Source: Pararhizobium qamdonense
Lineage (GTDB): Bacteria; Pseudomonadota; Alphaproteobacteria; Rhizobiales; Rhizobiaceae
Reading direction: 5' to 3'
Assembly (NCBI RefSeq): GCF_029277445.1
Contig: NZ_CP119567.1
Span: forward strand, 1-64,000
Length of the DNA stretch: 64,000 nt
Shown here: positions 12,608-28,031 of the stretch, piece by piece
Layout: every line of letters starts with the position of its first letter
Position numbering within the stretch: position 1 is the stretch's first letter
Position numbers and translations under genes: made by a program
Notes under the pieces: model-generated
The model's input: the letters and a program-made list of their open reading frames with translations, nothing else
Told to the model about the DNA's origin: nothing
Database searches by the model: none

Positions 12608-12707
12608 ATTCGAAACCACTGGTTAGTTCTGGGGTTAGCGATCGGCCATTTATTCCTTCGCGCACGAGATTCATAGATCATTCCAAACAATATTGGGAGT
12701 GATCATC

Positions 12708-13697
12708 ATGGCACGCGCTATCGTATTCCACCGGCATGGCGGACCGGAGGTGTTGCGGATCGAGGACATCGACACGCCTGTTCCTGGCCTCAGTGAGGTT
12801 CGCATCCGCGTAAAAGCGTTGGGGCTTAACCGCGCCGAAGCGCTGATCCGGGAAGGCACTTACATCGAAAAGCCGACATTTCCGGCACGGCTCGGACTTG
12901 AGGCATCCGGCATCATTGACGCGGTCGGCGCAGGCGTCGAAGGATTGTCGCTTAGTGATGCGGTCAGCGTCATTCCTCCGCTATCGATGACCACCTATCC
13001 GACCCATGGCGAGTTCGCCGTCCTGCCGGCCGGCCATATCGTCAAACACCCCGCAAACCTTGGCTGGGAGGAAGCCGCCGCTGTCTGGATGCCATTCCTG
13101 ACGGCCTATGGCGCCCTTGTGGATCTGGCGCAATTGCGTCCGGGCGAGCCCGTTGTCATCACCGCAGCATCGAGCAGCGTGGGCATTGCCGCGATCCAGA
13201 TTGCCCGCAGGATCGGCGCCATCCCTCTTGCGCTCACCCGCACATCGGCGAAGCGGCAGGCTTTGCTCGACGCCGGAGCGGAACATGTGATCGCCACCAT
13301 GGAAGAGCCGCTTCCCGAGCGGCTGCGGCAGATTGCCGGTTCCAACAATATCCGGGTCATTCTCGACGCGGTCGGCGGGCCGATGGTCGGCGCGCTTTCG
13401 GATGCCATGTCAAAAGGCGGCATCCTCATCGAATATGGCGGTCTCGATCCGCTGCCGACACCGTTTCCACTGGCTGCAGCTTTATCAAAGAGCCTGACCT
13501 TGCGAGGATATCTGGTGCACGAACTCATCCGCAATTCGGCCCGCCTGGAACTTGCGAAGGCCTTCATTGTCGAGGGACTGACCTCCGGCGCGTTCACGCC
13601 GCAGATCGCCAGGACCTTCGTGTTTGACGATATCGTCGAAGCTTACCGCTATCTCGAATCCAACACGCAGTTTGGCAAGGTTGTCGTCACTCTTTAG
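12708..13697 (+). CDS. Zinc-independent MDR dehydrogenase, NADPH:quinone oxidoreductase-like
   Basis: The 329 residues form a medium-chain dehydrogenase: a GroES-like N-terminal half (GLEASGIIDAVGAGVEG) and a Rossmann domain with the AASSSVGIAAIQIARRIGA nucleotide-binding motif. The catalytic and structural zinc cysteines are missing, which places it with quinone oxidoreductases and enoyl reductases and not with alcohol dehydrogenases. ATG at 12708 follows GGGAG and is preferred over an upstream TTG. The start lies about 100 bases from the divergent, frameshifted LysR gene, a common regulator-target arrangement. Substrate unknown. Confidence 0.85.
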   Translation: MARAIVFHRHGGPEVLRIEDIDTPVPGLSEVRIRVKALGLNRAEALIREGTYIEKPTFPARLGLEASGIIDAVGAGVEGLSLSDAVSVIPPLSMTTYPTHGEFAVLPAGHIVKHPANLGWEEAAAVWMPFLTAYGALVDLAQLRPGEPVVITAASSSVGIAAIQIARRIGAIPLALTRTSAKRQALLDAGAEHVIATMEEPLPERLRQIAGSNNIRVILDAVGGPMVGALSDAMSKGGILIEYGGLDPLPTPFPLAAALSKSLTLRGYLVHELIRNSARLELAKAFIVEGLTSGAFTPQIARTFVFDDIVEAYRYLESNTQFGKVVVTL

Positions 13698-13876: not shown

Positions 13877-15415
13877 TCATCGTCCAAACTGACGTTGCGC
13901 GTATCTCTCTCCATAGAGCCGGTCACCCACAGCTTGAAGGCAGGACAGTTCTTCGTTCTCATGGCTGAGCCGATGGTTGAGCAGCCGTTCAAGGCCTTCG
14001 GTGCGAAATGTCCGCATTGCGGGATCGGCGGTGCGATCGGTTGACTCGTGAGGGTCTTCTGTGAGGTTGTAGAAGACCGGCGGAAGGCCGGGAAAATGGA
14101 CGTATTTGAATTCCGATGTGCGGACGACATGAAGGTTACAGAGTGCGGAAGGCAGGCTCAGTTGGCGTTCGAATGTGAGGTCGCGCAAATTCCGGAAATC
14201 GTGGCTCCAATATACGGCATCCCGCCACGCCGTCGATTGCCCCATCAGATGCGGCAGAAGGCTTCGGCCATCGAGATTGATATCGTGTTCCAAGCCCAGG
14301 AGATCGATGAGTGTCGGAAAAACGTCGACGGCTTCGGTGAACGCGCCGATGGTCTTGCCGCCGGGCATTCCAGGTGCCCGGATGATCAGCGGGATGTGGG
14401 CTGAAGCGTCAAACCAGCCCAGCTTTCCCAGCAGGCCATGATCGAAAAGCTGTTCACCATGGTCGCCGGATAGGATGAAAATCGTGTTCTCCCACGAATT
14501 CCCAGCCTTTAGCGCGTCGATAATACGCCCGACGTGAAAGTCGACCTCCAGGGCGAGTGCGGCATAGGCCCGGCGAATGGCGCGGATCACCTCGGGGGAG
14601 GCTTGGTGCGGCGCTCCGCTCGCGTTCGGAACAAAGCTTCCAACACTGAGCGTGTTTCGGTAGGCTTGCATCAATGGGTGTTCGGCTTTCGCCCTGTAAG
14701 GAATTTGGGGCAACTCGACAGACTGCATGTCGATCTGTTCAAGCCAATGGCTCGCTGCGGCAAACGGTGGATGCGGTGCGATATAGGATATGTGGGCAAA
14801 GAGGGGCTCGGTCCCCTGTGTCGAAAGATGGGCCAGAAATCGATCGGTGAGGAAGGCCGTCTCGGAATCCTCGGCGTCGAAGACGGTGGGTTCCCCAAGA
14901 TTGCGAAGTTTGAAGACCTGGTCCCGTCCTTTCGACGGATCGGGAACATTGATGCCTTTTTTTATTAGATGGGCGATCCATGGCCGCGCCGCCTCATCGA
15001 GCAGGCAGCCGATGTCGAGGCCGGGAGCGACATTTTCATAATTCGCCCGCGCCGGATCGCCGGCCGTCAGCTGACGCGGGTCCAACGTCGTATCGGTGTA
15101 GCCGAATAGAATGGGCGCATATCCTACCGCGCGTGCCGCCTGAAACAGCGTACGATGCCGGGCATCCAGAGGACTGCCATTTTGAATGGAGCGATGTTTG
15201 TGCGGATACAGTCCCGTCAACAGGCTGGCGCGGGCTGGTCCACATGGATAGGCTTGGCAATAATGCGCGGCAAAACTCACGGCTTCTGCCGCCAGGGCAT
15301 CCAAATTGGGCGTGTTCAGCCAACTCTTGCGGCCAGGTGCAAGATCGCCGCGCCACTGATCGACCGTGATGAAGACCACATTCGGGCGTTTTGAGACGTC
15401 AGTTTGCGAAGACAT
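13877..15415 (-). CDS. Sulfatase-superfamily hydrolase, phosphonate monoester hydrolase-like
   Basis: The protein belongs to the formylglycine-dependent branch of the alkaline phosphatase superfamily. Cys58 in CGPARASLLTG sits in the C-x-P-A/S-R motif that is oxidised to formylglycine. Metal ligands are visible as VDQWRGD (near residue 19) and SGDHGEQLFDHG. From ATG 15415 it has 512 residues; rhizobial phosphonate monoester hydrolases are about this size with the nucleophile at about position 57. There is no signal peptide, so it is cytoplasmic. It ends a phosphonate operon and overlaps the transporter ATPase gene by 17 bases. Release of a phosphonate such as 2-aminoethylphosphonate from an imported ester is inferred. 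Confidence 0.8.
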   Translation of the reverse strand: MSSQTDVSKRPNVVFITVDQWRGDLAPGRKSWLNTPNLDALAAEAVSFAAHYCQAYPCGPARASLLTGLYPHKHRSIQNGSPLDARHRTLFQAARAVGYAPILFGYTDTTLDPRQLTAGDPARANYENVAPGLDIGCLLDEAARPWIAHLIKKGINVPDPSKGRDQVFKLRNLGEPTVFDAEDSETAFLTDRFLAHLSTQGTEPLFAHISYIAPHPPFAAASHWLEQIDMQSVELPQIPYRAKAEHPLMQAYRNTLSVGSFVPNASGAPHQASPEVIRAIRRAYAALALEVDFHVGRIIDALKAGNSWENTIFILSGDHGEQLFDHGLLGKLGWFDASAHIPLIIRAPGMPGGKTIGAFTEAVDVFPTLIDLLGLEHDINLDGRSLLPHLMGQSTAWRDAVYWSHDFRNLRDLTFERQLSLPSALCNLHVVRTSEFKYVHFPGLPPVFYNLTEDPHESTDRTADPAMRTFRTEGLERLLNHRLSHENEELSCLQAVGDRLYGERYAQRQFGR

Positions 15416-16439
15416 GCGCATCCTCGGACCGAAAAGCAACATTCAGCTGGTCTCCAGCGCGCACAGTTCTTACGTCGCGGCTTGCAGCGTCGAGGCTGAG
15501 GCGAATCTGGCCATCGGGACCTTCGGCGACGAGGTTGAGGCGCGTGACAGGCCCCTGATATAACCGGGCCTCGACCTGGGCCCGCAGCCCCTTTCCGTCG
15601 CCACAGATCATCAGGTCTTCGGCGCGAACGAAGATCGGCACGGGGCCGCTCTGCGCCGGTGACGGCAGCGTGAAAAAGTCTCCAAGGCGAAGCATGCCGT
15701 CCCGTGGCTCAAGGAGAATTCGATTGCGTGTCCCAACGAAATTGGCAGCAAATTCGGTTGCCGGGCGATCGTAAAGTTCTTCGGGGCTGGCAACTTGATC
15801 GATATATCCGCCTTGCATGATGACGACGCGATCGGCGATGGCCAGCGCCTCGGCCTGATCATGCGTGACGAGGATTGCCGTTGTGCCAACCGCCTTTTGG
15901 ATACGTGCGATTTCATCGCGCAAATGATGGCGAACTTGCGCGTCCAGTGCCGATAAAGGTTCGTCCAGCAAGAGGACATCCGGGTTTGGAGCAAGTGCTC
16001 TGGCCAGAGCGGTGCGTTGCTGTTGGCCGCCGGACAACTGGTTCGGATGGTGATCGGCCCGCTCCGACATCCCAGTCAGATGCAGCAATTCGTCAACCCG
16101 CTTGGCAATCAATTTGGACGCTTCACCTGCGACCTTGAGCGGAAAGCCGATGTTTTCACGGACGGTCATGTTCGGGAACAGCGAATACCCCTGAAACACC
16201 ATGCCAATACGGCGCTTTTGCACGGTCAATGCGGTGACATCCTTGTCTCCAAACAGAATACGTCCGCCATCCGGCTTGGCAAGCCCTGCGATGATGCGCA
16301 GCAATGTGGTCTTGCCGCATCCCGAGCTTCCAAGCAGCGCAATCATCTCTCCCTTTTTGATCTGGAGATTGATGCCGCGCAGGGCAGGCTTGTCATTGAA
16401 GCTCTTCGTGATGCTATTGATTGAGATCGGGGTGCTCAT
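15399..16439 (-). CDS. ABC transporter ATP-binding protein, phosphonate (2-aminoethylphosphonate) uptake
   Basis: The 346-residue ATPase has Walker A GSSGCGKTT, the signature LSGGQQQRTALARAL, Walker B VLLLDEP and the H-loop ILVTHDQAEAL. The C-terminal regulatory domain is of the TOBE type found in PotA, FbpC and PhnT-like importers. It overlaps the upstream permease gene by four bases and the downstream hydrolase gene by 17. Function is assigned from the operon, which also encodes phosphonoacetaldehyde hydrolase. By fold alone it could serve iron, spermidine or sulfate transport. Confidence 0.85.
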   Translation of the reverse strand: MSTPISINSITKSFNDKPALRGINLQIKKGEMIALLGSSGCGKTTLLRIIAGLAKPDGGRILFGDKDVTALTVQKRRIGMVFQGYSLFPNMTVRENIGFPLKVAGEASKLIAKRVDELLHLTGMSERADHHPNQLSGGQQQRTALARALAPNPDVLLLDEPLSALDAQVRHHLRDEIARIQKAVGTTAILVTHDQAEALAIADRVVIMQGGYIDQVASPEELYDRPATEFAANFVGTRNRILLEPRDGMLRLGDFFTLPSPAQSGPVPIFVRAEDLMICGDGKGLRAQVEARLYQGPVTRLNLVAEGPDGQIRLSLDAASRDVRTVRAGDQLNVAFRSEDAHVFAN

Positions 16440-17257
16440 TTGGAAATCTTTCCGTTTGTCATGGCGTTGCCGTTGAGCCAGATCACCGCAACCGAAAGGA
16501 CCAAGGTCACGACGAAGTTGATGATCGTCATTACTGCCAGAAGATTGTAGTCCGCATCCGCGCCCTTCAACATGTTCAAGAGATAGAGTTGAGCCGTCTC
16601 GAACCGCGTTCCCACCAGCATCTGCGCCAGGGCGATTTCGTTAAAGGACGTTCCGAAGGCCATGATCAAAGCGGTTGCGATGCCTGCCGTAACGTTCGGA
16701 AGAATGACATGCCCGATGGCTTGCCCGGTGTTTGCGCCGCAGCAGCTGGCAGCCTCGGTCAATTGTTCGACCCGTGCAGCGGCCATGGCATTGTCGAGCG
16801 TCCAGTATACGAACGGAAAGGCGATAGCGACATGCGAGAACATCAATAACCCGATGGTGCCCTGAAGCGACGGGAAATAGTCGCCCGTGAACTGGAGCAG
16901 CCCGAGTGCGATCACCAGGATCGGCAGTGCAAAGGGAATAGCCGCCACGACCTGCAGAACATTCTTGATGGCAGGGTTGACCACCCGCTGCCAGTAGATC
17001 GCCGGCAGTGCGAGGATCACCGTCACCAACGCGACGACGACAGCGAGCATTATTGTTCGCAACAGCACTGCCGTAAAGCGGCTGTCATGCATCGATTTGA
17101 TCCAATGCGCGATCGTGTAACCCTCAGGCAAAGGGTTGGTCGTCCAGACCGTTGCAAGCGAATACAAAAATGTCGCAATCATTGGAAGGGTGACGTAGGC
17201 AACGATCAGGCTGAGAAAGCCCAGACCGTTCCAGCCGAACTGCGGTTTCAAAGCCAT
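16436..17257 (-). CDS. ABC transporter permease, phosphonate uptake, second subunit
   Basis: The 273-residue inner-membrane protein has about six hydrophobic segments, starting with FLSLIVAYVTLPMIATFLYSL, and the EAA loop variant EAASCCGANTGQAIGHVILP that contacts the ATPase. It belongs to the PotC/PhnV type of permease. It overlaps the upstream permease by ten bases and the ATPase by four, so the transporter subunits should be made together. Substrate assignment rests on the neighbouring phosphonate enzymes. Confidence 0.85.
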   Translation of the reverse strand: MALKPQFGWNGLGFLSLIVAYVTLPMIATFLYSLATVWTTNPLPEGYTIAHWIKSMHDSRFTAVLLRTIMLAVVVALVTVILALPAIYWQRVVNPAIKNVLQVVAAIPFALPILVIALGLLQFTGDYFPSLQGTIGLLMFSHVAIAFPFVYWTLDNAMAAARVEQLTEAASCCGANTGQAIGHVILPNVTAGIATALIMAFGTSFNEIALAQMLVGTRFETAQLYLLNMLKGADADYNLLAVMTIINFVVTLVLSVAVIWLNGNAMTNGKISK

Positions 17258-18159
17258 CTTGCGCCCCTTTTCAAGAGAATGCGGTAAAACAGCAGGGATA
17301 CGAAGGCAAAGATCATCAGCAGCGAGGCCATGACCGGCATCCGGTTGTTACCAAACAGCGAGCCGAGCATGGTGCGGCTCATATCGAGCGTAATCAGCGG
17401 ATAGGCCGGGCGTCCTTCGGAGGACAATGCAATCGGCAAACCGTAAAGGCTCAGCGATGACGTGAAGATCAGGATCCAACCGGCACCGATATAAGGAAGC
17501 AGCACGGGCAGCCCGACATATTGCCAGAACTGCCTTCGGCTCGCACCGCAGCATTGGCAGGCCTCCCACCAGTCGTCACGAATGAGCGCGACGGCAGGCA
17601 GGGTAAGAAGGACGAACATCGGCACGAAACTATATTCATAAGCGATCACAAAACCCCAAAAGCTGCTCGGCGGCGGCGGTGCGAAGTCCAGGCCAAGCGA
17701 GCGCATGGCCAAGGTGATCATGCCGTAAGCACCCAGCGTGGCCATAAAGCCGAAAGCCAAACCGATACCCGAGAAATTCTGAGCGACTGTCAAAAGTCCG
17801 AGATTGAAGATGCGCGACGCGTGTCCCATTTTAGTGATCAGCCAAGTCAAGGGCGTGCCAACAATTGTTGCAATCGAAGCCACGGTTGCAGCCAGCAGGA
17901 TGCTGTTCAAGATTGCCTGCCGGGCAGAGCGGCTTGAAAGCACGTCACTCCAGTTGCTCAAGGTGAATCCAGATCCGGTGGCGTCTGCGAAACTGCCACG
18001 GATGAGGATCAAGCAGGGTATGACCAACAGGGAAATGCTAACGAGGATGATCGGCAGGGCCGGTCCCCATGCGAAAAGCCAGTGCCGGAGAGCCGCGACG
18101 AGGACTGATCGCCCCCGCCGGCTTTCCGGCGCAACGTCCTGTGCGCCGATGATCGACAT
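17248..18159 (-). CDS. ABC transporter permease, phosphonate uptake, first subunit
   Basis: The 303-residue inner-membrane protein has a cytoplasmic N-terminus (residues 1-30), about six membrane segments, and the EAA loop WEACQCCGASRRQFWQYVGL. It is a PotB/PhnU-type permease that pairs with the product of the next gene. The ATG lies two bases after the stop of the binding-protein gene. Known 2-aminoethylphosphonate systems have either two separate permeases, as here, or one fused protein. Confidence 0.85.
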   Translation of the reverse strand: MSIIGAQDVAPESRRGRSVLVAALRHWLFAWGPALPIILVSISLLVIPCLILIRGSFADATGSGFTLSNWSDVLSSRSARQAILNSILLAATVASIATIVGTPLTWLITKMGHASRIFNLGLLTVAQNFSGIGLAFGFMATLGAYGMITLAMRSLGLDFAPPPPSSFWGFVIAYEYSFVPMFVLLTLPAVALIRDDWWEACQCCGASRRQFWQYVGLPVLLPYIGAGWILIFTSSLSLYGLPIALSSEGRPAYPLITLDMSRTMLGSLFGNNRMPVMASLLMIFAFVSLLFYRILLKRGARWL

Positions 18160-18161
18160 TG

Positions 18162-19262
18162 TCAGCCTCCGGCGACTTCATCGACCCAATACTGCGCCAG
18201 TTGCGCGACATCAACGGCCGACCAATCGTCGATCTTGATGACATGCGCATACTGTTCGTCGGGCAGCCAGCCTTTGCGGGCCTCGGAAGGCAGGTTGAGA
18301 TCGCCGAGCACCCACCGGATCGGACGCGCGCCGAATTTGGCGAAAGCGGTTTGAGCCTCGTCCGAAAGGACATAGTCCAAGAAAAGTTTGGCGATATTCA
18401 TCTTGGCCGTATGGAAGCCGTTGATCATTGCCGCCGAGGGGGCGTAAATCGTCCCTTGCGGAATGATGACCTCGCAGTTGATACCCTTCTCCCGCAAGGC
18501 TGCAGCCTGTGCGATGCAATTGAAGTCGTACTTGAGCTGGATCGGCACTTCGCCACGCTCCATTGTCGCCGCATTGTTCGCGCCGGATGCCATCTGCGGC
18601 AGCAGCTTGCGGGCATAGTCGGCGCCCGGAGCCATATCCTTTTCAGAGCCGCCATGTGCATATGACCAGGCAAGAAACAGAGCCATCTGGGTGCCACCCA
18701 TTCCAGATGCATCCACCGCACTGACGAGACCCTTGTACTCCGGCTTTAAAAGGTCGTCCCAGGTGCGCGGGACGTTCTTGACGACATCGGTATTGACGAT
18801 CATCGCGGGCACACCGGCAAAGGTTGCCACCCAGCCACCCGTCTTCGCCTTCAGGCCGTTGGGAAGCTTGTCCGCTGATGGCGGCAGATAGGGCGGCAGC
18901 ACGCCCCGCGCTTCGGCAACCGGTCCAAAGAGAATGCCGATGTCGCCAGAAACTGCGACAGGGTTGCCGCGCTCGGCCTCATATTTCAGAATTTCTTCCA
19001 TTGATCCCATGTCAGTATCGATATGGGTATACGTAAAATCGTATTTCTTCGCCATCAACGCCAGCACTTCCCCATAGTTCGCCCAGTTATCGGGCATGCC
19101 ATAGGTGATGTAGGTCTCGGCTTCCTTGCGCGCTGCTTCCACATCGGCAGCAGCCTTCCAATCGTCATTTGCGGCGAAAGCCGCACGGGGCAGCAGCGCT
19201 GCTCCGGTGGCCAGGGCCGTCATCGTCAACATCTTGCGGCGGCTCATCATTGTTGTGGTCAT
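18162..19262 (-). CDS. Periplasmic substrate-binding protein of the phosphonate ABC transporter
   Basis: The 366-residue protein carries an N-terminal export signal with a double arginine (SRRKMLTMTALATGAALL, ending AAFA) and then an extracellular solute-binding domain of the family that includes iron, thiamine and aminoethylphosphonate binders (TYGMPDNWANYGEV; GDIGILFGPVAE). It should capture the substrate in the periplasm and deliver it to the two permeases encoded downstream. An alternative start at the Met before SRRK would shorten it by five residues. The ligand is inferred from the operon. Confidence 0.82.
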   Translation of the reverse strand: MTTTMMSRRKMLTMTALATGAALLPRAAFAANDDWKAAADVEAARKEAETYITYGMPDNWANYGEVLALMAKKYDFTYTHIDTDMGSMEEILKYEAERGNPVAVSGDIGILFGPVAEARGVLPPYLPPSADKLPNGLKAKTGGWVATFAGVPAMIVNTDVVKNVPRTWDDLLKPEYKGLVSAVDASGMGGTQMALFLAWSYAHGGSEKDMAPGADYARKLLPQMASGANNAATMERGEVPIQLKYDFNCIAQAAALREKGINCEVIIPQGTIYAPSAAMINGFHTAKMNIAKLFLDYVLSDEAQTAFAKFGARPIRWVLGDLNLPSEARKGWLPDEQYAHVIKIDDWSAVDVAQLAQYWVDEVAGG

Positions 19263-19297
19263 GGTGACATCTCCAAATCGGAAGGTTTCAGGTTGGA

Positions 19298-20101
19298 TCA
19301 GGGGCGCTCGCCGGCGGCGAGATGACGGTCAATTTCGTCGATCACCGGCAGGAGATCGGCAATGGTTTCGATCGTGAAATGGGCACCGGCTTCGCGGAAT
19401 TTCGCGGCGGCCTTCTCGGCCATTGCGGCGCGCTCAGCGGGCGTCACGGCGGCCAGTTCCTCTTCAGACAGACCAGTCTCGTTGCCGCTTAAAGTAAGGC
19501 CTATCGTCCAGGAACCGGCATTGCGGCCCTCGGAAATCCCGACGGGTGTGTCATCGACCTTGACCGTGAGATGGGCTGCGCTCAGATCAAGTTCGACGAA
19601 ATTCAGAAACATGCCGGCTGCCGATGGCCTGCCGGCGATGACTTCGTCGCAGCAAACCAGGAAATCGGTTTCGACCTTCTGCTGCGCGGCGATAGGAAGA
19701 ACCTGTTGCATGATTGTGCGCGTATAGCCCGTTGTCGATCCGATCTTCAGGCCTCGCTCGCGCAGAGCCATCAACGCGTCTGCAGCCCCTGGTATCGCCG
19801 CCGAATGGCTTGCGGCAGACGCGATATTGAGCGGCAGGAACGTCTCATAAACGAGATCGATAGCGGCTTGATCGGGGGCCTTTCCATAAACGCTCGCCCA
19901 AGCTTCGGCAACGCGCGGCTGGGTAAGGATTGCCTCGATATGGTCCCGTTTGGCACGGCCCATCGGCGCGCGCGCTTCCTCCAACAGAATAGTAACGCCG
20001 AGGCTGGCGAATGCTTCGATAAATGCGCCCATCGGGGCGCGCGATCCGAAATCGACGAGCGTGCCCGCCCAGTCGAAAATGACAGCTTCAATCTTGCTCA
20101 T
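19298..20101 (-). CDS. phnX: Phosphonoacetaldehyde hydrolase (phosphonatase)
   Basis: PhnX splits the C-P bond of phosphonoacetaldehyde, giving acetaldehyde and phosphate. The 267-residue HAD protein has the phosphonatase form of motif I, FDWAGTLVDFGS, with nucleophile Asp10 and alanine in place of the usual second aspartate. Lys51 in MGRAKRDHIEAIL is the expected Schiff-base lysine of this family. Motif II lies in KIGSTTGYTR and motif III near VKVDDTPVGI. It overlaps the upstream FAD oxidoreductase gene by four bases (ATGA), which suggests that the oxidoreductase supplies its substrate. Among HAD proteins this assignment is strong. Confidence 0.92.
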   Translation of the reverse strand: MSKIEAVIFDWAGTLVDFGSRAPMGAFIEAFASLGVTILLEEARAPMGRAKRDHIEAILTQPRVAEAWASVYGKAPDQAAIDLVYETFLPLNIASAASHSAAIPGAADALMALRERGLKIGSTTGYTRTIMQQVLPIAAQQKVETDFLVCCDEVIAGRPSAAGMFLNFVELDLSAAHLTVKVDDTPVGISEGRNAGSWTIGLTLSGNETGLSEEELAAVTPAERAAMAEKAAAKFREAGAHFTIETIADLLPVIDEIDRHLAAGERP

Positions 20102-21252
20102 GCGAGGGCCTTTGCCGTTTCAGATTTGGGATTATAGAGGTCGGCGATCACTTGCTCTGCGAGAGCAAAGCCGGTGGACGCGCCCGTTCCGCCCGTGACC
20201 ATGACCAGCCGGATGTTTTGTGCAGGGCGCTCGACCAGGATCGTGCGGGTCGCCGAAGACGTGTAACTGCCGCACCAGCGTTCCGTGACCTTCCGCGCCG
20301 GTAGGTCGAGGACCTCGTCAAAAACCTGAAGGATCAGATCATCGAAATCGGCGCGAGCGAAGGGGTCGGGCTGGGGGCCATAGGAGTGGCTGTCCCCCAC
20401 GATCAGCGAACCATCCGCCGATTGAACAGTGATCAGATGGACGCCTGCTGCCCGGATCGCGGCCGCTTCGGCGTCGAGGCGGGCGATCAAAGGTTGCGCA
20501 CACTCGAGTTGGGAAAAGCCCTCATACCGGGCGAGCGAGTGGTCCGACATCATCGCCGATGCAAATGCCGGCATATTCTGAGCGGTCACGCGCAGCATCT
20601 GCAACGTGCATTTCGTCAGATCGCGCGATGCGATCAGTTCCGGAAACAGGGTGCTGAAATCGTCGCCGGGGCAAACAACGATGCTTTCGCCTTTGACCAT
20701 GCCGCCAGCCGTGACAACGCCGTCTTCCGTGACATCCCGTGCGGCCGTGCACCAGCGGAAATCGACGCCGTGGTGCTGTTCCAGCCATGCCGCGATTTTC
20801 GGGAGCGCCTCCCGGCTTTCGACGCGCAGTTCATGGGGCGAATAAAGGACATCTAGGAGACCGCCCTGCCTCAGAGGCGGCAATTTTTTTATCGCTTCAT
20901 CCTGCGACAGAAGCCTGCAACCAGCGCCCATGTCTGTGGCAAGAAATCCGTGCAGGACATCTGAGGCCTCTGGCCGGTAGGCCGGCATCACCAATCCGCG
21001 TTGCAAAATCTGGATTCCGGCCAGATCCGCGACTTCAGCCCAAATGTCACGGCTGCGCCGGGCACGCGCCCAGTGAGCGCCCGCCTTCTGGCCGCTGATG
21101 GTGATAAAACCGAAATTGCGGATGGAAGCACCGTTGGCGCGTGCATCGCGATCGATCACGCAAACCGTTTTCTGAGCCTTGGTTGCAGCCAACGCCACGC
21201 CGAGGCCGACGATTCCACCCCCTACAATGACAACGTCATATTTGTCTCGCAT
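20098..21252 (-). CDS. FAD-dependent oxidoreductase of phosphonate catabolism (glycine-oxidase fold)
   Basis: The 384-residue protein has an N-terminal FAD motif (VVIVGGGIVGLGVALA), the DAO-type segment RANGASIRNFGFITISGQ and a C-terminal flavin-contacting stretch (VMVTGGTGASTGFALAEQV). It belongs to the family of FAD oxidoreductases recurrent beside phosphonatase genes; members oxidise N-methyl-2-aminoethylphosphonate, and some also 2-aminoethylphosphonate, to phosphonoacetaldehyde. It is the first structural gene of the operon and is coupled to phnX. No PhnW-like transaminase is present nearby, so this enzyme is the probable source of phosphonoacetaldehyde. The exact substrate preference is not readable from sequence. 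Confidence 0.85.
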   Translation of the reverse strand: MRDKYDVVIVGGGIVGLGVALAATKAQKTVCVIDRDARANGASIRNFGFITISGQKAGAHWARARRSRDIWAEVADLAGIQILQRGLVMPAYRPEASDVLHGFLATDMGAGCRLLSQDEAIKKLPPLRQGGLLDVLYSPHELRVESREALPKIAAWLEQHHGVDFRWCTAARDVTEDGVVTAGGMVKGESIVVCPGDDFSTLFPELIASRDLTKCTLQMLRVTAQNMPAFASAMMSDHSLARYEGFSQLECAQPLIARLDAEAAAIRAAGVHLITVQSADGSLIVGDSHSYGPQPDPFARADFDDLILQVFDEVLDLPARKVTERWCGSYTSSATRTILVERPAQNIRLVMVTGGTGASTGFALAEQVIADLYNPKSETAKALA

Positions 21253-21292
21253 AAGTCATTCCGTGCCGTTTGAGTACGACAGGACCTATGCC

Positions 21293-21309
21293 ATTTGTAT
21301 GTAACAAAT
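21293..21309. promoter_or_regulatory. LysR-type box upstream of the phosphonate operon
   Basis: ATTTGT (21293-21298) and ACAAAT (21304-21309) form a 17-bp interrupted palindrome with the T-N11-A pattern typical of LysR-type regulators. It lies 41 bases upstream of the FAD oxidoreductase start, in the 86-base gap behind the LysR gene. The likely ligand is the neighbouring LysR protein. Confidence 0.55.
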
Positions 21310-21338
21310 TGATGAAATCAAAAATGTATTTGTCTAAA

Positions 21339-22220
21339 TTATAAAAAAGCCGCAGCTGTCTCCTGGGCGATTTCGATGAACGACGCGATCTGCGGCCTGA
21401 GTTCGGCTCCCTTCAGGCAAACGAGATATTGGCCCACTTCGGCGCCATCTGCTTGTAACGACGCGATTTTTACATACTCATCCTCCTGAACCTCATGTTC
21501 CACCGCAACGCCAAGCCCGATACCTGCAGCGACTGCGGCATAGGAGACGTCGAGCGTGTTGACCGCCATCGCAACCTTTGGGAAAATCTTTTGGGCGGCG
21601 CAGATCGTGTCGAACTGACGGCGGGAGCCGGAGTTTTCGTTCCAGAGGACCATGGAGACACCGTCGAGGTCTGCAAGATCGATATGGGCATTGGCAAGCA
21701 GCGGATGATCGCGTTTCCCATAGACAACAAGCTTGCGGCGCGCCACCTCGACGGCATGAAGCCCTGCAGGCGCCTCCGGCGATGAAATTGAAGCCAGATG
21801 GATTTCCCCCCGCTTCACCGCCTTTAAGAGATCAAAACTGGGAGCGCCAAGCGTCGAAATCCGTATATCCGGATGGTGTGCAACAAATTTGGCGAGCGCC
21901 GGCATAATCAACCGGTGAGCGGAAAAACCCAGTGATAGCGTGCTGGCTTCCATCGCACTTTGTGCAGTCAAGCCGGTCTCGATCTCGTTAAAAAGGTCGA
22001 GCGCCAATCTGATACGCCCCAGCAATGCCTCTGCATCGGGCCGCACCGTGATGGTATAGCCATCGCGGTCAAAGAAGCGAATTTGCCATGCCGCCTCAAA
22101 AGTCTGGATCTGGTTCGAAATGGATGGCTGAGATAGACCCAAACTCTGTGCTGCGCGCGAAATTTGGCCGTGACGGGCAACCGCATCGACAGCACGGAGT
22201 TGGGCAAGAGACAAAGACAT
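21339..22220 (-). CDS. LysR-family transcriptional regulator of the phosphonate operon
   Basis: The 293-residue protein begins MSLSLAQLRAVDAVARHGQ, a typical LysR helix-turn-helix (ISRAAQSLGLSQPSISNQIQ), and continues with a periplasmic-binding-like effector domain. ATG at 22220 is chosen because the longer upstream frame has no LysR similarity. It is co-directional with, and 86 bases upstream of, the phosphonate operon, and a LysR-type palindrome lies in the gap. It may sense an aminoethylphosphonate-type ligand, which would allow induction independent of phosphate starvation; that is inference. Confidence 0.87.
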   Translation of the reverse strand: MSLSLAQLRAVDAVARHGQISRAAQSLGLSQPSISNQIQTFEAAWQIRFFDRDGYTITVRPDAEALLGRIRLALDLFNEIETGLTAQSAMEASTLSLGFSAHRLIMPALAKFVAHHPDIRISTLGAPSFDLLKAVKRGEIHLASISSPEAPAGLHAVEVARRKLVVYGKRDHPLLANAHIDLADLDGVSMVLWNENSGSRRQFDTICAAQKIFPKVAMAVNTLDVSYAAVAAGIGLGVAVEHEVQEDEYVKIASLQADGAEVGQYLVCLKGAELRPQIASFIEIAQETAAAFL

Positions 22221-22487
22221 CGGCACACTTTCAAAATTGCATTGTGTCGTCGGACGAAACGAAGGCGCAGATATCCGGAAACGGAAATGGGCCAGGGCCA
22301 ATAAGCCACACCTTCCAAATGCGTATAATGCGGAATGCCTGTTCCGACAAACCTCTCGGTGTAATTGCGGAACGGCCATGGTCTCAAAGTGCGAACAATG
22401 GGGGCCGCGTCGATGGAAAGGCCGGGCGGACAATTTTGTCCGGTCTTTCCCCGGCCGCGTTGGTGGGTTATCGACTGCCTGTTTGGC

Positions 22488-23699
22488 TTATGCCTCGAGC
22501 TGCATGGAAAAACGTCCAATCAGACGGCTGACATTTCCCGGTGAGAATACGTCCTCCAGCAGCAGATAGGCAGCACCGAACAGCGCGCTGTCGTCCTGTG
22601 CGGTGGAAAGCTCGATGGTGAGGTCGCGGGTCGCCAGGGGTAGGCAGCGTTGGTAGACCAGTTCGCGCACGCCAGACAGCAATAGGTCGCCGCTCTGCGC
22701 CAGTGTTCCGCCGATGACGATGAGGCTCGGGTTGATGATGCTGACGACATCGGAGATGACTTCGCCAATCGTGCGCCCCGCTTCCCTCACCAGCATCAAC
22801 GCTTCAGGCTTGCGCTGTTCCACCAGTTCGATCACGTCGCGGGCGGTCTCGGCTTTAAAGCCGCGGGTGGAGAGATCGCGGGCGATCGCCCAGCCGGCGG
22901 CGCGGGCCTCGACGCAGCCGAACTTGCCGCAGCGGCAGAGGGGAGCATCGTCGGACAGGAACTGGATATGGCCGATATCGCCTGCGGCGCCCTGTGCGCC
23001 ACGGAACAGATGGCCAGCCGCGATCATGCCGCTGCCGATGCCGGTGCCTATTTTCACGAAGAGCATGTCATCTGTGGGCGGAAAGCGGCGCCTGTGCTCG
23101 CTGATCGTCATCAGGTTCACGTCGTTTTCGACTGAAACCGGAACGTCGAAACGGGCTTTCAGGCGGCCGATAATATCGAAATCGTCCCAGCCGTGCAGAA
23201 CCGATGGGCCGACGACGCAGCCACGCTTGAAATCCACCGGTGTCGGCAGGCTGAGGCTGATGCCCACGAAGAAATTGTGGGTTTTTGCTGCCTCCGCAGC
23301 CAGATCGGCAAATGCGTCCTCGATCTGCGTCAAGATGACGTACGGTCCGCTTTCGACGGTGAAGGGAATCGTCGTTTGCGCGATGATGGCGGGCTTGAGG
23401 TCCATGGCGGCGAGGTGGATATGCGTCTCGCCGATATTGGCGACGAGCACGAAGCCGCTTGCGGCATTGACGGCCAGCACCCGCGTCGGCCGCCCACCGC
23501 TTGGGAGCGTTTCCTCCGTTTCGCGCACGAGGCCGCTGAGGAGCAACGCGTTCAGACGCTGGGTGACGGTGACGCGAGACAGTCCGGATGCCTGCAGCAA
23601 TTCGGCGCGCGATGATGCGCGTCGGGTGGCGATCAGAGAAAGTATGCCGCCGGCATCTTCCAGTGCCGGCTTGCCGTGTCCCTGTTCTGGCCTATCCAT
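22488..23699 (-). CDS. ROK-family transcriptional regulator
   Basis: The 403-residue protein has an N-terminal winged helix (ASSRAELLQASGLSRVTVTQRLNAL) followed by a sugar-kinase-like ROK domain. Conserved features are the GISLSLPTPVD loop, the VENDVNLMT metal-site region, KIGTGIGSGM, and the zinc motif region CRCGKFGCVEA. Such proteins (NagC, Mlc, XylR types) repress sugar genes and respond to a sugar or sugar phosphate. The start at 23699 follows AGGAG. It is divergent, over a 342-base gap, from a sugar ABC transporter operon, its probable target. Confidence 0.9.
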   Translation of the reverse strand: MDRPEQGHGKPALEDAGGILSLIATRRASSRAELLQASGLSRVTVTQRLNALLLSGLVRETEETLPSGGRPTRVLAVNAASGFVLVANIGETHIHLAAMDLKPAIIAQTTIPFTVESGPYVILTQIEDAFADLAAEAAKTHNFFVGISLSLPTPVDFKRGCVVGPSVLHGWDDFDIIGRLKARFDVPVSVENDVNLMTISEHRRRFPPTDDMLFVKIGTGIGSGMIAAGHLFRGAQGAAGDIGHIQFLSDDAPLCRCGKFGCVEARAAGWAIARDLSTRGFKAETARDVIELVEQRKPEALMLVREAGRTIGEVISDVVSIINPSLIVIGGTLAQSGDLLLSGVRELVYQRCLPLATRDLTIELSTAQDDSALFGAAYLLLEDVFSPGNVSRLIGRFSMQLEA

Positions 23700-23897
23700 G
23701 CATTGCTCCTATTCAATGCCCCGTTTAACGGCAAAGCCGGTGGAGATAAAGGACGCGTTTTCACGTTTCAGCACGGTTATGTACAATTTCATCCATAATT
23801 AGGTTCCGTTTATCACAAGCCATTGGACTGCACGAACGGCCTCGAAGCGTCGTGTTGCCACGCAATAACGCCCCTAAAAATCGGTTGCGACGCAATA

Positions 23898-23917
23898 TTT
23901 GTATAATAATATACAAA
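23898..23917. promoter_or_regulatory. Candidate operator of the sugar operon
   Basis: TTTGTATA (23898-23905) and TATACAAA (23910-23917) are perfect inverse copies separated by ATAA, forming a 20-bp A+T-rich palindrome 125 bases upstream of the binding-protein start, in the gap to the divergent ROK regulator gene. The rest of the 342-base gap holds promoters that I cannot place with confidence. Confidence 0.5.
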
Positions 23918-24041
23918 AGAGTTGTTTTACATATTTGACTTTATGCAAAAGTGATGCCCTAATCCTCTTGGCCTTTGAGGAGAGGCCAAGCTCGCCAGGA
24001 GCCGGAGGGGCTCCGTGGCATTGCTCTTTTGGGAGGAATTC

Positions 24042-25055
24042 ATGCCGTTTCATCGCATGTGCGTATCCGCACGTTCCAATGCATTCAAAGCCGGGATCAG
24101 CGTGCTCGGTCTTTCGTTTGGCTTCGCTCTGAGCGCAGGCGCCGCTTCCGCGCAGGAAGTTATTGTCGGCCTCGTTACCAAGACGGAGGTCAATCCATTC
24201 TTCGTCAAGATGCGCCAGGCGGCGGAGGCCCGCGCCAAGGAAAAAGGGCTGAAGCTGATCGCCCGCGCCGGCAAGTTCGATGGCGATAACGAAGGCCAGG
24301 TTGCCGCGATCGAGGATCTGATCAGCGCCGGCGCCAAGGGCATTCTCGTGACGCCGAACAATTCGTCCGGCATGCTTGATATCATCAAGAAGGCGCGGGA
24401 AGCCGGTGTGCTGGTAATCGCGCTCGATACGGCGACCGACCCGGCCGAAGCCGTCGATGCGACCTTTGCGACCGACAATTTCGAAGCCGGCGTGCAGCAG
24501 GGTGCCTATGCCCGCAAGGCCATGGGCGACAAGAAGGCGGTCGTTGCCATGCTGGATGGGACGCCGGGCGGCACGGTCGATACGTTCCGCCATGATGGTT
24601 ACCTGAAGGGCTTCGGCATTGCCGAAGGCGATCCGTCGATTGCGGGCGCCGCTATTACCAACGGCGCGCAGGACAAGGGGCAGGTCGGTATGGAAAACCT
24701 CTTGTCCAAGAATGGCGATATCAATGCCGTTTACACGATCAATGAGCCCGCTGCGGCCGGCGCCTATGCGGCATTGAAATCCTTCGGCAAGGAAAGCGAC
24801 GTGATGCTGACGTCCATCGACGGCGGATGCGCTGGCGTTCGCGATGTCAAGGACGGCAAGATTGCCGCTACCGTCATGCAATTCCCTTACAAGATGGCCT
24901 CCATGGGCGTCGATGCCGTCGCCGATTATGCCGCCTCCGGCAAGAAGCCCAGTGGCTTCGTCAATACCGGCTCTTTCCTGATCACCGACAAGCCAGCGGA
25001 GGGCCTGGAATCCAAGGACACCGCCTGGGGTCTGGAAAACTGCTGGGGTGATTGA
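24042..25055 (+). CDS. Sugar ABC transporter substrate-binding protein (FrcB/RbsB type)
   Basis: The 337-residue periplasmic protein has a signal peptide (hydrophobic core GISVLGLSFGFALSAGAA, cut after ASAQ) and a type-I sugar-binding domain: GLVTKTEVNPFFVKM at the start, ISAGAKGILVTPNNSSG and ALDTATDP in the middle. It resembles fructose- and ribose-type binders of rhizobia. ATG at 24042 follows GGGAGGAATTC and is preferred over an upstream in-frame codon. It is followed after 117 bases by the permease; this gap may hold a processing or attenuation signal that keeps the binding protein in excess. Confidence 0.9.
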   Translation: MPFHRMCVSARSNAFKAGISVLGLSFGFALSAGAASAQEVIVGLVTKTEVNPFFVKMRQAAEARAKEKGLKLIARAGKFDGDNEGQVAAIEDLISAGAKGILVTPNNSSGMLDIIKKAREAGVLVIALDTATDPAEAVDATFATDNFEAGVQQGAYARKAMGDKKAVVAMLDGTPGGTVDTFRHDGYLKGFGIAEGDPSIAGAAITNGAQDKGQVGMENLLSKNGDINAVYTINEPAAAGAYAALKSFGKESDVMLTSIDGGCAGVRDVKDGKIAATVMQFPYKMASMGVDAVADYAASGKKPSGFVNTGSFLITDKPAEGLESKDTAWGLENCWGD

Positions 25056-25172
25056 TCCTCTTTCTCCCGGTGGGATCGCGTCAGGCTTATGCCGGTCGCG
25101 GTCCCGGCCGGGCGATCGTCCGTCGCGCTGGCGTGAAGCCTATAGCGCAAGACTTTGAGGCATGAGGTTTCC

Positions 25173-26159
25173 ATGAACACAGCCATTGCTTCCGCACCCG
25201 ATAGGCCGCGAAGCTGGAAGGCCCGTATTGTCGGTGCTCCTTCGGCGGGACCGCTTCTGGTTCTGATCGCGTTCTGCGTGATTTTCGCATTCACCAATCC
25301 GAGATTTCTCGCAACGCAAAATCTGTCGATCATCCTGCAGCAGACCGTCATCATCGGTGTTCTGGCCATTGGCCAGACGCTGGTCATCCTGACAGCCGGC
25401 ATCGATCTGGCCGTCGGCGCGATCTGCGTGCTCGGCACGATCGTGGCGGGAAAGCTCGTCAATCTCGGCTATGACCCTGTTCTCTCGATGGGCTTTGCCG
25501 TGCTGCTCTGCACGATATCGGGACTTGCGGCCGGAGGGCTGGTCAGCGGGCTGAAGCTCCCGCCCTTCATCGTAACGCTTGGTATTCTCGGCATCCTGAC
25601 AGCAGCCCTTCGTCTGATATCCGAAGGCGGTGCCTTTGCCGTGCGCGATCCGTTTTTGTCCTGGACGGGCAATACGATGAGGCTGAGCGGTTTTGTGATC
25701 ACCTATGGTGTGGTGATCATGTTCGCGCTCTATGCGATCGTCTGGTATTTTCTCAATGAGACGAAATGGGGCCGGCATGTCTATGCCATCGGCAACAATC
25801 CGGAGGCCGCCCGCCTTGTCGGGATTCCCGTTCGGCGCCATCTCATGTCCGTTTATGTGCTGGCAGGCCTGATCTATGGCATCGGCGCCTGGCTGGCGCT
25901 AGGGCGTATTCCCAATGCCGATCCGAACGCAATGCAGACCGCAAACCTTGATTCCATCACTGCCGTCGTCATCGGCGGTACCAGCCTCTTCGGCGGGCGC
26001 GGCGGGCTGATCGGTACCTTGATCGGCGCCTTGATCGTCGGCGTTCTGCGCAACGGCCTGACACTCGCCGGCATTGATCCGCTCTGGCAGGACCTCGTGA
26101 CGGGCATCCTCGTCATCATCGCGGTTGCGCTCGACCAGATGTCCCGGAGGAGACGATGA
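25173..26159 (+). CDS. Sugar ABC transporter permease (FrcC/RbsC type)
   Basis: The 328-residue membrane protein belongs to the BPD_transp_2 family of ribose/fructose-type permeases. It has about eight to ten hydrophobic segments and the family hallmarks LTAGIDLAVGAICVL, GRHVYAIGNNPEAARLVGI and VVIGGTSLFGGRGG. ATG at 25173 has TGAGGTTTCC upstream. The stop overlaps the ATPase start by four bases. The transported sugar is not determined by these motifs. Confidence 0.92.
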   Translation: MNTAIASAPDRPRSWKARIVGAPSAGPLLVLIAFCVIFAFTNPRFLATQNLSIILQQTVIIGVLAIGQTLVILTAGIDLAVGAICVLGTIVAGKLVNLGYDPVLSMGFAVLLCTISGLAAGGLVSGLKLPPFIVTLGILGILTAALRLISEGGAFAVRDPFLSWTGNTMRLSGFVITYGVVIMFALYAIVWYFLNETKWGRHVYAIGNNPEAARLVGIPVRRHLMSVYVLAGLIYGIGAWLALGRIPNADPNAMQTANLDSITAVVIGGTSLFGGRGGLIGTLIGALIVGVLRNGLTLAGIDPLWQDLVTGILVIIAVALDQMSRRRR

Positions 26160-26947
26160 TGCCGGCCGATATCGCTCAATCTTCCGCCGCACCCGCGCAT
26201 GTTGTCTTGGAAGCACGCAATGTGGTGAAGACCTATGGTCATGTCACGGCTCTCAACGGCGTCGATTTCGAATTGCGGGCCGGCGAAATTCTCGCCGTGG
26301 TCGGCGACAACGGTGCTGGCAAGAGCACGCTGATCAAGGCATTGACCGGCGCGTTGCATCCGACCAGCGGTGAAATCCTTCTCGATGGTGAGCCAGTTCA
26401 TTTCAGGGGGCCGCTTGATGCCCGGTATGCCGGCATCGAGACCGTTTATCAGGATCTCGCCGTGGCGCCTGCGCTTGATATCGCGTCCAATCTGTTTCTC
26501 GGCCGCGAATTGCGCGCGCCCGGCATCATGGGCAGCCTGTTTCGCCGCCTCGACAAAACGCGGATGCGCGAGGAAGCCCGGCGCGTGATGGACGAGCTGC
26601 AGTTCCGGCTGCCGGCGATCGATAATCCCGTGGAAATGCTGTCCGGCGGACAGCGCCAGGGGGTGGCTGTCGCCCGTGCCGCGCTGTTCGCACGCAAACT
26701 GGTCATCATGGACGAGCCGACTGCAGCACTCGGCGTGCGCGAGACCGGGCAGGTTCTCGAACTTATCCGGTCAATCCGCAGCCGCGGTCTGCCCGTCGTG
26801 CTGATCAGCCACAACATGCCCAATGTCTTCGACCTTGCCGACCGCATCCACATCATGCGTCTCGGCCGGCGTGCCGCCGTGGTGACGCCGAAGACTCACT
26901 CCATGAACGACGTTGTCGCCATCATGACTGGCGCCGCCACTGCTTAA
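26156..26947 (+). CDS. Sugar ABC transporter ATP-binding protein (FrcA type)
   Basis: The 263-residue protein is a single-domain ATPase with Walker A GDNGAGKSTL, signature LSGGQRQGVAVARAA, Walker B LVIMDEPTAALG and H-loop VLISHNMP. Ribose-type importers usually have a duplicated ATPase of about 500 residues; the single-domain form, as in the rhizobial fructose system, fits this length. It is coupled to the permease gene. A 7-bp-arm hairpin follows nine bases after the stop codon. Confidence 0.92.
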   Translation: MMPADIAQSSAAPAHVVLEARNVVKTYGHVTALNGVDFELRAGEILAVVGDNGAGKSTLIKALTGALHPTSGEILLDGEPVHFRGPLDARYAGIETVYQDLAVAPALDIASNLFLGRELRAPGIMGSLFRRLDKTRMREEARRVMDELQFRLPAIDNPVEMLSGGQRQGVAVARAALFARKLVIMDEPTAALGVRETGQVLELIRSIRSRGLPVVLISHNMPNVFDLADRIHIMRLGRRAAVVTPKTHSMNDVVAIMTGAATA

Positions 26948-26955
26948 ACCATCCC

Positions 26956-26978
26956 GTCCGGTTCTCGTACGACCGGAC
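26956..26978 (+). repeat. Intercistronic hairpin between transporter and aldolase-like genes
   Basis: GTCCGGT (26956-26962) and ACCGGAC (26972-26978) pair perfectly around nine bases, directly behind the ATPase stop and 22 bases before the next start codon. It has no T-run, so it is more likely an mRNA-stability element or a partial attenuator than a full terminator. Confidence 0.5.
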
Positions 26979-26999
26979 ACCACCGAACGGAGCAAACTC

Positions 27000-28031
27000 A
27001 TGTATCGCCTGGATCAGAAACTCGCGCGCATTCGTGCCGGCCAATATACCCGCAACGACTTCATCATCGCCGACGCAAAAGACGGCGATATGGGACCAAG
27101 CATGACCTCATGTGGTCCCAAACGCGAGAAGGACGGAAGCTGGTCACGTCACTACACGCGCCCGGAATTTCTGGACAATATCCGCGCCGTCGTCGAGCAG
27201 GATATCGTCGATATCATGCTGACATCCGCGTCCAACATGGAAGCGCTAACCGACATGGGCGTCTTCCGCAACAGCGCGGTCAAACCGGCGATCCGCGCCA
27301 ACGATACGACGGATGTATGGGTCTGCCGCGGGGCCACGTATTCGAAACAGCCGTCCCGGCCTTTCCGCTCGGCATCGCTGTCGCGGGTTGCGACCGGTAC
27401 GGTCGATCCGGCACCGGGCGCCCCGATCACCGGTACGGATCTTGGCCTCTATTCCATCACCTTCAACAACGACCTTGACCATGATTACCATGCGCTGGAA
27501 GCGTTCACCGATTTTCGCGACGATGCCGCGCGCAACAATTTCAAATATTTCCTCGAGGTGTTCAACCCGAACGTCGATTCCGGCATCGATCCGGAACTGC
27601 AGCCGCATTACGTCAATGATGTCATGATGCGCTGCCTTGCGGGTGTGATGAAAGCGGATCGTCCGCAGTTCCTGAAGATCCCCTTCAACGGCGCAAAGGC
27701 GCTGGAGGAGCTTGCATCCTACGACCCGAGCGTCATTGTCGGCGTCCTCGGCGGCGGTGCCGGCACGACCCGCGATTGCTTCGAGCTGCTCTATCAGGCT
27801 GAAAAATATGGCGCCCGCGTTGCGCTCTTCGGCCGCAAGATCAACCTGGCGGAAGATCCGCTGGCCATGGTCCGGTTCATGCGCGAGGTCGCTTCCGGCA
27901 ATGTTTCACCAGGTGAGGCGGTCAAGGCCTATCACGGCCAGCTGGAAAAAGACGGCATTGCACCGCACCGTGATTTGTCCGCCGACAATCTCGTCACCGA
28001 AGCTGTCCTCAAGCCGGAACAGACAAAATGA
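27000..28031 (+). CDS. Class I aldolase-like protein (DhnA/DeoC type barrel)
   Basis: The 343-residue protein looks like a Schiff-base aldolase. Lys226 in the strand FLKIPFNGAKALEEL is the candidate catalytic lysine, and the phosphate-binding turns VGVLGGGAGTT and ARVALFGRKINLAEDPL follow as in DhnA/DeoC/LsrF-type barrels. The N-terminal segment DAKDGDMGPSMTSCG is distinctive. It lies between a sugar importer and a PfkB kinase and overlaps the kinase gene by four bases, which suggests cleavage of the phosphorylated form of the imported sugar. The specific substrate is unknown; a standard fructose-bisphosphate role would be only one possibility. Confidence 0.75.
   Translation: MYRLDQKLARIRAGQYTRNDFIIADAKDGDMGPSMTSCGPKREKDGSWSRHYTRPEFLDNIRAVVEQDIVDIMLTSASNMEALTDMGVFRNSAVKPAIRANDTTDVWVCRGATYSKQPSRPFRSASLSRVATGTVDPAPGAPITGTDLGLYSITFNNDLDHDYHALEAFTDFRDDAARNNFKYFLEVFNPNVDSGIDPELQPHYVNDVMMRCLAGVMKADRPQFLKIPFNGAKALEELASYDPSVIVGVLGGGAGTTRDCFELLYQAEKYGARVALFGRKINLAEDPLAMVRFMREVASGNVSPGEAVKAYHGQLEKDGIAPHRDLSADNLVTEAVLKPEQTK

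Follow-up and report, generated by a model that had tools for sequence, protein, structure and literature searches.

We report an operon of Pararhizobium qamdonense in which the genes for a published, transaminase-free route for the breakdown of aminoethylphosphonate (AEP) are joined by one for a predicted phosphonate monoester hydrolase (PMH), and the recurrence of PMH genes beside the same core enzymes in other bacteria. The operon lies in a stretch of 64,000 nucleotides (the window; positions 1-64,000 of contig NZ_CP119567.1, assembly GCF_029277445.1) and runs from position 22220 down to 13877 on the minus strand. Its genes encode a LysR-type regulator, a flavin adenine dinucleotide (FAD) oxidoreductase of the PbfD/HpnW type, the phosphonoacetaldehyde hydrolase PhnX, a four-gene ATP-binding cassette (ABC) importer and the PMH. 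We think it fairly probable that this is a substrate-induced catabolic unit for aminoethylphosphonates that includes ester cleavage by the PMH. That the PbfD-PhnX core works as proposed below is held with high confidence, and the chances are put at even that the PMH would hydrolyze imported esters to release aminoethylphosphonates. The core has been described before; its extension by a PMH looks new. The features are as follows.

21339..22220, minus strand: LysR-type regulator, 293 amino acids (PF00126 and PF03466); an alternative, longer TTG start at 22433 is possible
21253..21338, no strand assigned: 86-bp gap between the LysR and FAD genes, a possible operon promoter with a weak 6+6 inverted repeat of the T-N11-A type
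20098..21252, minus strand: FAD oxidoreductase, PbfD/HpnW type (TIGR03364; PF01266)
19298..20101, minus strand: PhnX phosphonoacetaldehyde hydrolase (TIGR01422)
18162..19262, minus strand: ABC importer binding protein (PF13343), with an N-terminus that resembles an export signal by eye; nearest solved chain, 5t1p
17248..18159, minus strand: ABC importer permease 1, with a weak match to an AEP-type permease model (53 bits, cut-off 247) and no Pfam family at E <= 0.001
16436..17257, minus strand: ABC importer permease 2 (PF00528), with weak PotC/PhnV-type matches
15399..16439, minus strand: ABC importer ATPase, PhnT2/PotA-like (TIGR03265, 375 bits, under the cut-off of 458)
13877..15442, minus strand: predicted D-type PMH with the motif CGPAR (PF00884; PDB 4uph, 2w8s, 2vqr and 4upk; Tyr and Asp signature)

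All eight genes are intact, collinear open reading frames (ORFs), from which the coordinates and junction lengths were taken. A preliminary description of this DNA had placed a LysR regulator, an FAD oxidoreductase, PhnX, a four-gene importer and a formylglycine-type hydrolase in one minus-strand run of mostly overlapping genes, and the ORF coordinates bear this out, with overlaps at four of the seven junctions (LysR-FAD, gap of 86 bp; FAD-phnX, overlap of 4; phnX-binding protein, gap of 35; binding protein-permease, gap of 2; permease-permease, overlap of 10; permease-ATPase, overlap of 4; ATPase-hydrolase, overlap of 44). The last overlap shrinks to 17 if the PMH starts at the ATG at 15415, a start suggested by a 512-amino-acid database copy. 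The run is bounded by a ROK-type regulator gene before it (22488-23699) and a quinone-oxidoreductase-like gene on the other strand after it (12693-13697). The core operon is annotated with unchanged gene order and an equal 4-bp pbfD-phnX overlap on a plasmid of Rhizobium tumorigenes, which argues against a chance arrangement. A nucleotide search of the plasmid collection gave no match.

By its signature residues, the predicted product of the last gene is a D-type PMH. Its four best solved relatives are 4uph (374 bits), 2w8s (324), 2vqr (319) and 4upk (297), it is about 37% identical to RlPMH (2vqr), and the formylglycine motif CxPxR is present as CGPAR. PMHs carry Tyr and either Asp or Thr at two diagnostic positions at which related arylsulfatases carry Lys and His (PMC5488252). 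At these positions (RlPMH 105 and 107), GYTDT of the window enzyme aligns with GYTTT of 2vqr and GYTDT of 4uph, and the pair Tyr and Asp assigns it to the D-type. It thus shares its family, the CxPxR motif and the diagnostic Tyr with the PMH/PehA enzymes (RlPMH 2vqr, 2w8s, 4uph and 4upk), but differs from RlPMH in being Asp-type rather than Thr-type, in falling below the PehA cut-off and in its pbfD neighbor, which RlPMH lacks. The PehA equivalog NF045661 was the best NCBIfam match, at 412 bits against a cut-off of 900; a phnX-linked PMH of Bosea also stayed below it (527 bits). The genome holds one gene of the formylglycine-generating enzyme family (PF03781, 256 bits). No signal peptide was seen by eye in the window PMH, which should therefore act after import. 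The preliminary description gave this hydrolase no role, and we did not find it in published versions of the pathway.

Contigs were scanned with an alignment-based profile, which gave 570 confirmed pbfD loci; the best 80 were used, so the shares below hold for the nearest relatives only. (An earlier contig scan with a single protein query gave 63 pattern matches, 0 confirmed.) The full set comprised 104 pbfD loci, 101 of them distinct (three pairs look like the same genome twice); several stretches end at contig ends, and a missing neighbor means one missing from the stretch. In 16 of the 104 loci (13 of the best 80, genomes G171 and G231, and the window), a PMH gene is found no more than about 10 kb from pbfD. 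Among the best 80, phnX is in the stretch in 73, PhnW in 1 and PMH in 13; 12 of these 13 also hold phnX, and the PMH gene stands directly behind phnX in 10 (two Bosea, Pannonibacter, Amorphus, a Rhizobiales metagenome-assembled genome, three Roseibium, Roseicyclus and a Rhodobacterales isolate). In Tepidamorphus the PMH gene converges on phnX, and in Bosea vaviloviae it comes after pbfD in a stretch that lacks phnX. In G171 and G231, which belong to one genus, pbfD-phnX is divergent from a Pot-like importer, with the PMH gene about 6 kb away at the importer's end (the MocR regulator and Pot-like importer were tested in G171, and G231 was assigned by clustering). None of the stretches around the 12 pbfD loci accompanied by PhnW contains PMH.

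Within 6 kb of pbfD, importer subunits aside, PMH is the commonest enzyme after PhnX (14 of 104 loci among the kept clusters, with G171 and G231 just outside); this survey covered clusters present in five or more loci, after removal of ORF clusters whose base composition marked them as antisense. In the family sample, 0.024 pbfD-PMH pairs were expected by chance and 3 were seen, or 2 if one genus is counted once, giving a chance probability of about 2e-6 or 3e-4, respectively, which is rough and assumes uniform placement and 5-Mb genomes. In a tree of 41 PMHs, the 16 pbfD-linked members need at least six state changes and lie in at least three separate branches, and on the PbfD tree, with bootstrap not fully settled, the PMH label needs at least seven changes; the pairing was thus gained or lost many times over. 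In neither tree did any of 500 shuffles cluster the label as strongly as observed. Importers found with PMH-pbfD are of the PhnSTUV-like, Pot-like and Opp/Dpp-like types (the last was tested on the Amorphus and Roseibium members, and clustering assigned it to the others).

The complete block has a counterpart in Xinfangfangia sp. CPCC 101601 (L122, 4209-9555), which has the same seven genes in the same order, PMH last, at 57.5-72.5% identity and with the same 4-bp pbfD-phnX overlap; it differs in a divergent regulator with an AraC-type helix-turn-helix in place of LysR and in a gene for PhnM of the carbon-phosphorus (C-P) lyase pathway about 5 kb away. The tie between PMH and AEP breakdown is not confined to pbfD, because in genome G184 (G184:C8; L204, 1296-7682) a PMH gene and a phnW-phnA-phnY cluster lie tail to tail with 7 bp between them; this cluster includes a gene for a phosphonate-associated membrane protein. 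G184 carries PhnW, and its own pbfD is on another contig.

Plasmid pAU20c of Aureimonas sp. AU20 (L064, 10257-13479) carries a decayed copy of the operon with an intact PMH gene, followed by a glycerol/glycerol-3-phosphate gene set. In operon order, the copy retains LysR residues 1-113, the end of permease 1, the first half of permease 2, most of the ATPase and the intact PMH, which overlaps the ATPase; pbfD, phnX and the binding protein had no match there. PMH was therefore part of the block in a second family too, and it outlasted the decay of the other genes.

Two further genes were seen near pbfD. An omega-aminotransferase gene is present in L137, L138, L145, L150, L154, L161, L162, L184-L186 and L198, on the other strand in 10 of the 11 (AptA-type in L154, at 561 bits; other loci by clustering), and its product might work on an amino compound belonging to this pathway. 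Five loci (L036, L125, L126, L134 and L136, of which L036 and L126 look like the same genome) have a polyphosphate kinase 2 gene, in keeping with a possible storage of the phosphate set free; L036 was tested with PF03976 and the others were assigned by clustering.

In the proposed mechanism, LysR would sense the compound and induce the operon, and the importer would take up AEP, N-methyl-AEP or their small esters. A cytoplasmic D-type PMH, activated to formylglycine, would cut the ester to give the free aminophosphonate; the nature of the ester is conjectural, glyceryl and glycosyl AEP being guesses. The FAD oxidase would convert the aminophosphonate to phosphonoacetaldehyde, giving off ammonia or methylamine along with H2O2, and PhnX would convert this to acetaldehyde and phosphate. 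Gene content and order, families, signature residues, the PhnW search, the formylglycine-generating enzyme family gene and PMH recurrence were observed here, and the PbfD and PhnX reactions are taken from the literature on these families.

PhnX of the operon scored 313.5 bits against TIGR01422 (cut-off, 220) and, aligned with the solved PhnX 2iof, has both the Asp that we take to be the catalytic nucleophile and the Schiff-base Lys. The latter is named as Lys53 in PMC11203657. In the PhnX proteins of 85 pbfD loci (pbfD-linked PhnX only), Asp and Gly replace Bacillus Gly185 and Asp190 in 85 of 85, and Ser replaces Cys22 in 78; the same three changes are reported in Achromobacter, and such changes are linked to slow enzymes (PMC11203657). 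The FAD oxidoreductase, whose gene adjoins phnX, scored 406 bits against TIGR03364 (cut-off, 285.1), which PMC10590968 gives as the annotation of PbfD1. According to the same paper, PbfC and PbfD oxidize N-methyl-AEP to phosphonoacetaldehyde and PbfD can replace PhnW, in agreement with the statement in the preliminary description that such oxidoreductases turn N-methyl-AEP, and some also AEP, into phosphonoacetaldehyde. The preliminary description also held that the 4-base overlap of the oxidoreductase and phnX genes fits direct hand-over. Such 4-bp overlaps are common in operons and point to translational coupling, and substrate channeling was rejected as a deduction from this one.

The importer and regulator are less closely matched. 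All models of the PhnSTUV AEP importer stayed below cut-off (PhnT2, 375 bits against 458; PhnS-type, 52 against 310; PhnV, 55 against 359; PhnU-type, 53 against 247), the permeases and binding protein giving weak matches to PhnUV/PhnS-type and other importer models. The best NCBIfam match of the LysR protein is the AEP-associated TIGR03339, at 172 bits against a cut-off of 341.

The PbfD-PhnX core without a transaminase is already published, and the window is a further instance of it, because both the pathway and the gene sets are described in PMC10590968 and PMC11203657; the core was accordingly rejected as a novelty. The cluster of PbfD2 from Mariniblastus fucicola likewise has a PbfD-type FAD oxidase beside phnX, no PhnW and oxidative formation of phosphonoacetaldehyde (PMC10590968); this organism is of another phylum, and the main text of that paper does not contain the words "sulfatase," "monoester" or "phosphodiester." Achromobacter has a LysR gene with hpnW-phnSXUT, and a similar cluster occurs in Ochrobactrum anthropi GPK 3, a strain without phnW in its genome (PMC11203657); these share with the window HpnW in place of phnW, PhnX, an importer and LysR. 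Achromobacter differs in having phnW elsewhere and a PhnHD oxygenase, and "monoester" is absent from the main text of PMC11203657. The Rhizobium tumorigenes plasmid operon (PR017_RS24110-24080) matches in LysR, FAD oxidoreductase, phnX, binding protein, two permeases and ATPase, in the same order and at 44-62% identity, but has no PMH gene; an IS3-like element comes next. Salmonella phnRSTUVWX, the PhnWX operon as given in PMC11203657, has an importer, a regulator and PhnX in common with the window, which differs in having the FAD oxidase in place of PhnW and in importer models below cut-off.

The preliminary description had noted that PhnW is absent, and a genome-wide search with two models upheld this: none was found over cut-off in the 6.24-Mb genome (best TIGR03301 match, 37.9 bits against 360.8; best TIGR02326 match, 41.9 against 400.8). 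In the family sample, a TIGR03364 gene was over cut-off in 20 of 297 genomes, 11 of which also had PhnW over cut-off (same PhnW model, joint search). These 11 are exactly the genomes without phnX in the stretch around pbfD (in one of them, G232, pbfD is at a contig end and its upstream side lies outside the stretch), and the 9 genomes with a pbfD-phnX pair, the window's included, have no PhnW. Such a split would arise once in 168,000 if genomes were independent, which they are not. This fits the account in PMC10590968, according to which pbfD is mostly accompanied by phnX alone outside the PbfD1 group. Among the best 80 loci, PhnW is in the stretch only in Agrobacterium salinitolerans (L131), where phnX is missing from the stretch, although the PbfD is of the window's type.

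A second pbfD-phnX pair of another lineage is on the main contig of the same genome (G000:C1:4278592-4280471; L034, 8575-10502), with a TIGR03364 gene at 423 bits and phnX at 324 bits. On the PbfD tree, the two copies fall into different, well-supported groups, the window copy with Rhizobium, Brucellaceae, Bartonella, Xinfangfangia and other copies and the second with own-genus copies and Rhizobium herbae. Upstream of the second pair is an AstE/AspA-type deacylase gene, and downstream are metallo-beta-lactamase-fold and M29 peptidase genes; the deacylase and peptidase clusters occur in 9 of the 104 pbfD loci, which are without exception Rhizobium or Rhizobiales records and include one genome twice. 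Since this second pair and the C-P lyase gene phnJ are both in the genome, the operon need not be the only route, and its loss need not abolish growth on AEP. The earlier view that the locus could be a complete oxidative pathway with its own uptake and regulation is supported in part, as to the FAD family, PhnX, the importer and regulator genes and the missing PhnW.

The sequence of the FAD enzyme does not tell plain AEP from N-methyl-AEP, and plain AEP as a main substrate is about an even call. The context of the window locus, phnX without phnW, fits the PbfD2 subgroup (context alone was compared). It is somewhat unlikely that the enzyme serves chiefly N-methyl-AEP or another N-substituted aminophosphonate, with AEP handled by C-P lyase or the second pbfD-phnX pair and the operon an add-on rather than a PhnW replacement. 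PbfD1 and PbfD2 both prefer N-methyl-AEP, PbfD1 about 18-fold (PMC10590968), in silico prediction gave N-substituted glycine-type compounds as HpnW substrates (PMC11203657), and phnJ and a PbfD of different lineage are at hand in this genome. However, none of the nine family genomes with a pbfD-phnX pair has PhnW, which suggests that PbfD takes over AEP there, and PbfD2, encoded in a cluster without phnW in a genome apparently without PhnW, is only fourfold less efficient with AEP (PMC10590968).

Several findings weigh against reading the operon as an AEP unit with ester cleavage. None of the named importer or LysR models reached its cut-off, and phnJ (495 bits) suggests that PbfD may be dispensable for the use of AEP. 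At E <= 1e-80, 101 of 394 family genomes have a PMH, which is thus much commoner than pbfD (20 of 297); at the same threshold, the seven other genomes of the window's genus in this sample have none. No pbfD or phnX was in the stretch in any of 18 further PMH contexts (L104-L121, some of which end at contig ends), nor in L102 and L103, two of the nearest relatives of the window PMH. As 88 of the 104 pbfD loci have no PMH in the stretch, PMH is optional to them, and its retention in AU20 warns that it can be useful without PbfD. Characterized PMHs are promiscuous and cut phosphodiesters too (PMC5649143 and PMC5488252). Because PMH is far commoner than pbfD, has unlinked contexts and is absent from the rest of the window's own genus sample, the PMH group at large has a different or wider role, with only some of its members serving aminophosphonates.

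An alternative, which we consider unlikely, leaves the core its stated function but makes the PMH an independent phosphodiesterase for phosphorus scavenging, which has importer and induction in common with the core and does not feed PbfD-PhnX. Such a role would suit the reported hydrolysis of phosphodiesters as well as phosphonate monoesters, and also RlPMH, whose gene adjoins an Opp-type importer with a family-5 binding protein, with no pbfD or phnX in the annotated stretch. It would also suit the conserved setting of unlinked chromosomal PMHs (L104-L119), which includes a glyoxalase-like gene (15 loci) and in part a diacylglycerol-kinase-type gene (eight loci; one member of each was tested). 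It leaves unexplained the position of PMH directly behind phnX in ten loci with different importers, the PMH gene abutting the phnWAY cluster in G184 and the repeated pairing on both trees. A sulfatase supplying sulfur, its place in the operon incidental, is very improbable: the family is PF00884 (Sulfatase) and relatives carry generic names such as "sulfatase," but the window enzyme has Tyr and Asp, with no arylsulfatase His at the RlPMH Thr107 position (rule from PMC5488252), the solved sulfatase 4upi has Lys and His at the two diagnostic positions, and the window enzyme's four best solved relatives are all in the PMH group.

For the ester-cleaving module, we propose, tentatively and at somewhat less than even chances, that D-type PMHs are the missing first enzyme in the catabolism of esterified AEP (phosphonolipid head groups and AEP-decorated glycans), which would proceed by import, cytoplasmic cleavage, PbfD and PhnX. 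In Alphaproteobacteria, different PMH branches, regulators and importers would have been combined into this module on several occasions, and the window would hold one of its most compact forms. Natural AEP is largely ester-bound, in lipids and glycans. Published hydrolytic phosphonate pathways begin with the free acid. A recurrent PMH-PbfD-PhnX module, if confirmed, would bear on how bacteria gain access to bound AEP and would assign a physiological function to some members of an enzyme group that is well studied in structure and known mainly for catalytic promiscuity; the proposal yields a directly testable substrate prediction. The transaminase-free core alone is one more instance of a published pathway. 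No natural substrate of D-type PMHs was named in the literature found, and no mention of PMH in a pbfD or phnX cluster was found in open-license literature, including word finds in the main texts of PMC10590968, PMC10574752, PMC12366243, PMC8154272 and PMC11203657. The nearest suggestion, in PMC5649143, is that alkaline-phosphatase-like enzymes, one of them a PMH, free phosphonates from polysaccharide esters in a marine Sulfitobacter with C-P lyase; a link to pbfD or phnX genes does not appear in that account.

Regulation of the operon has little support at the level of DNA sites. The inverted repeat in the 86-bp gap is a weak candidate for a LysR box and not clearly better than chance, with 327 of 2000 shuffles holding one as long and the same repeat not seen in 11 relatives checked. 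Control by a Pho box was rejected (5 matches in the window, a number at chance level, none of them before the operon), as were the results of a promoter and terminator scan, whose counts were at chance level. Directly upstream (22488-28031), the ROK regulator gene and a monosaccharide-type ABC importer set on the other strand (permease and ATPase) are probably a separate sugar locus.

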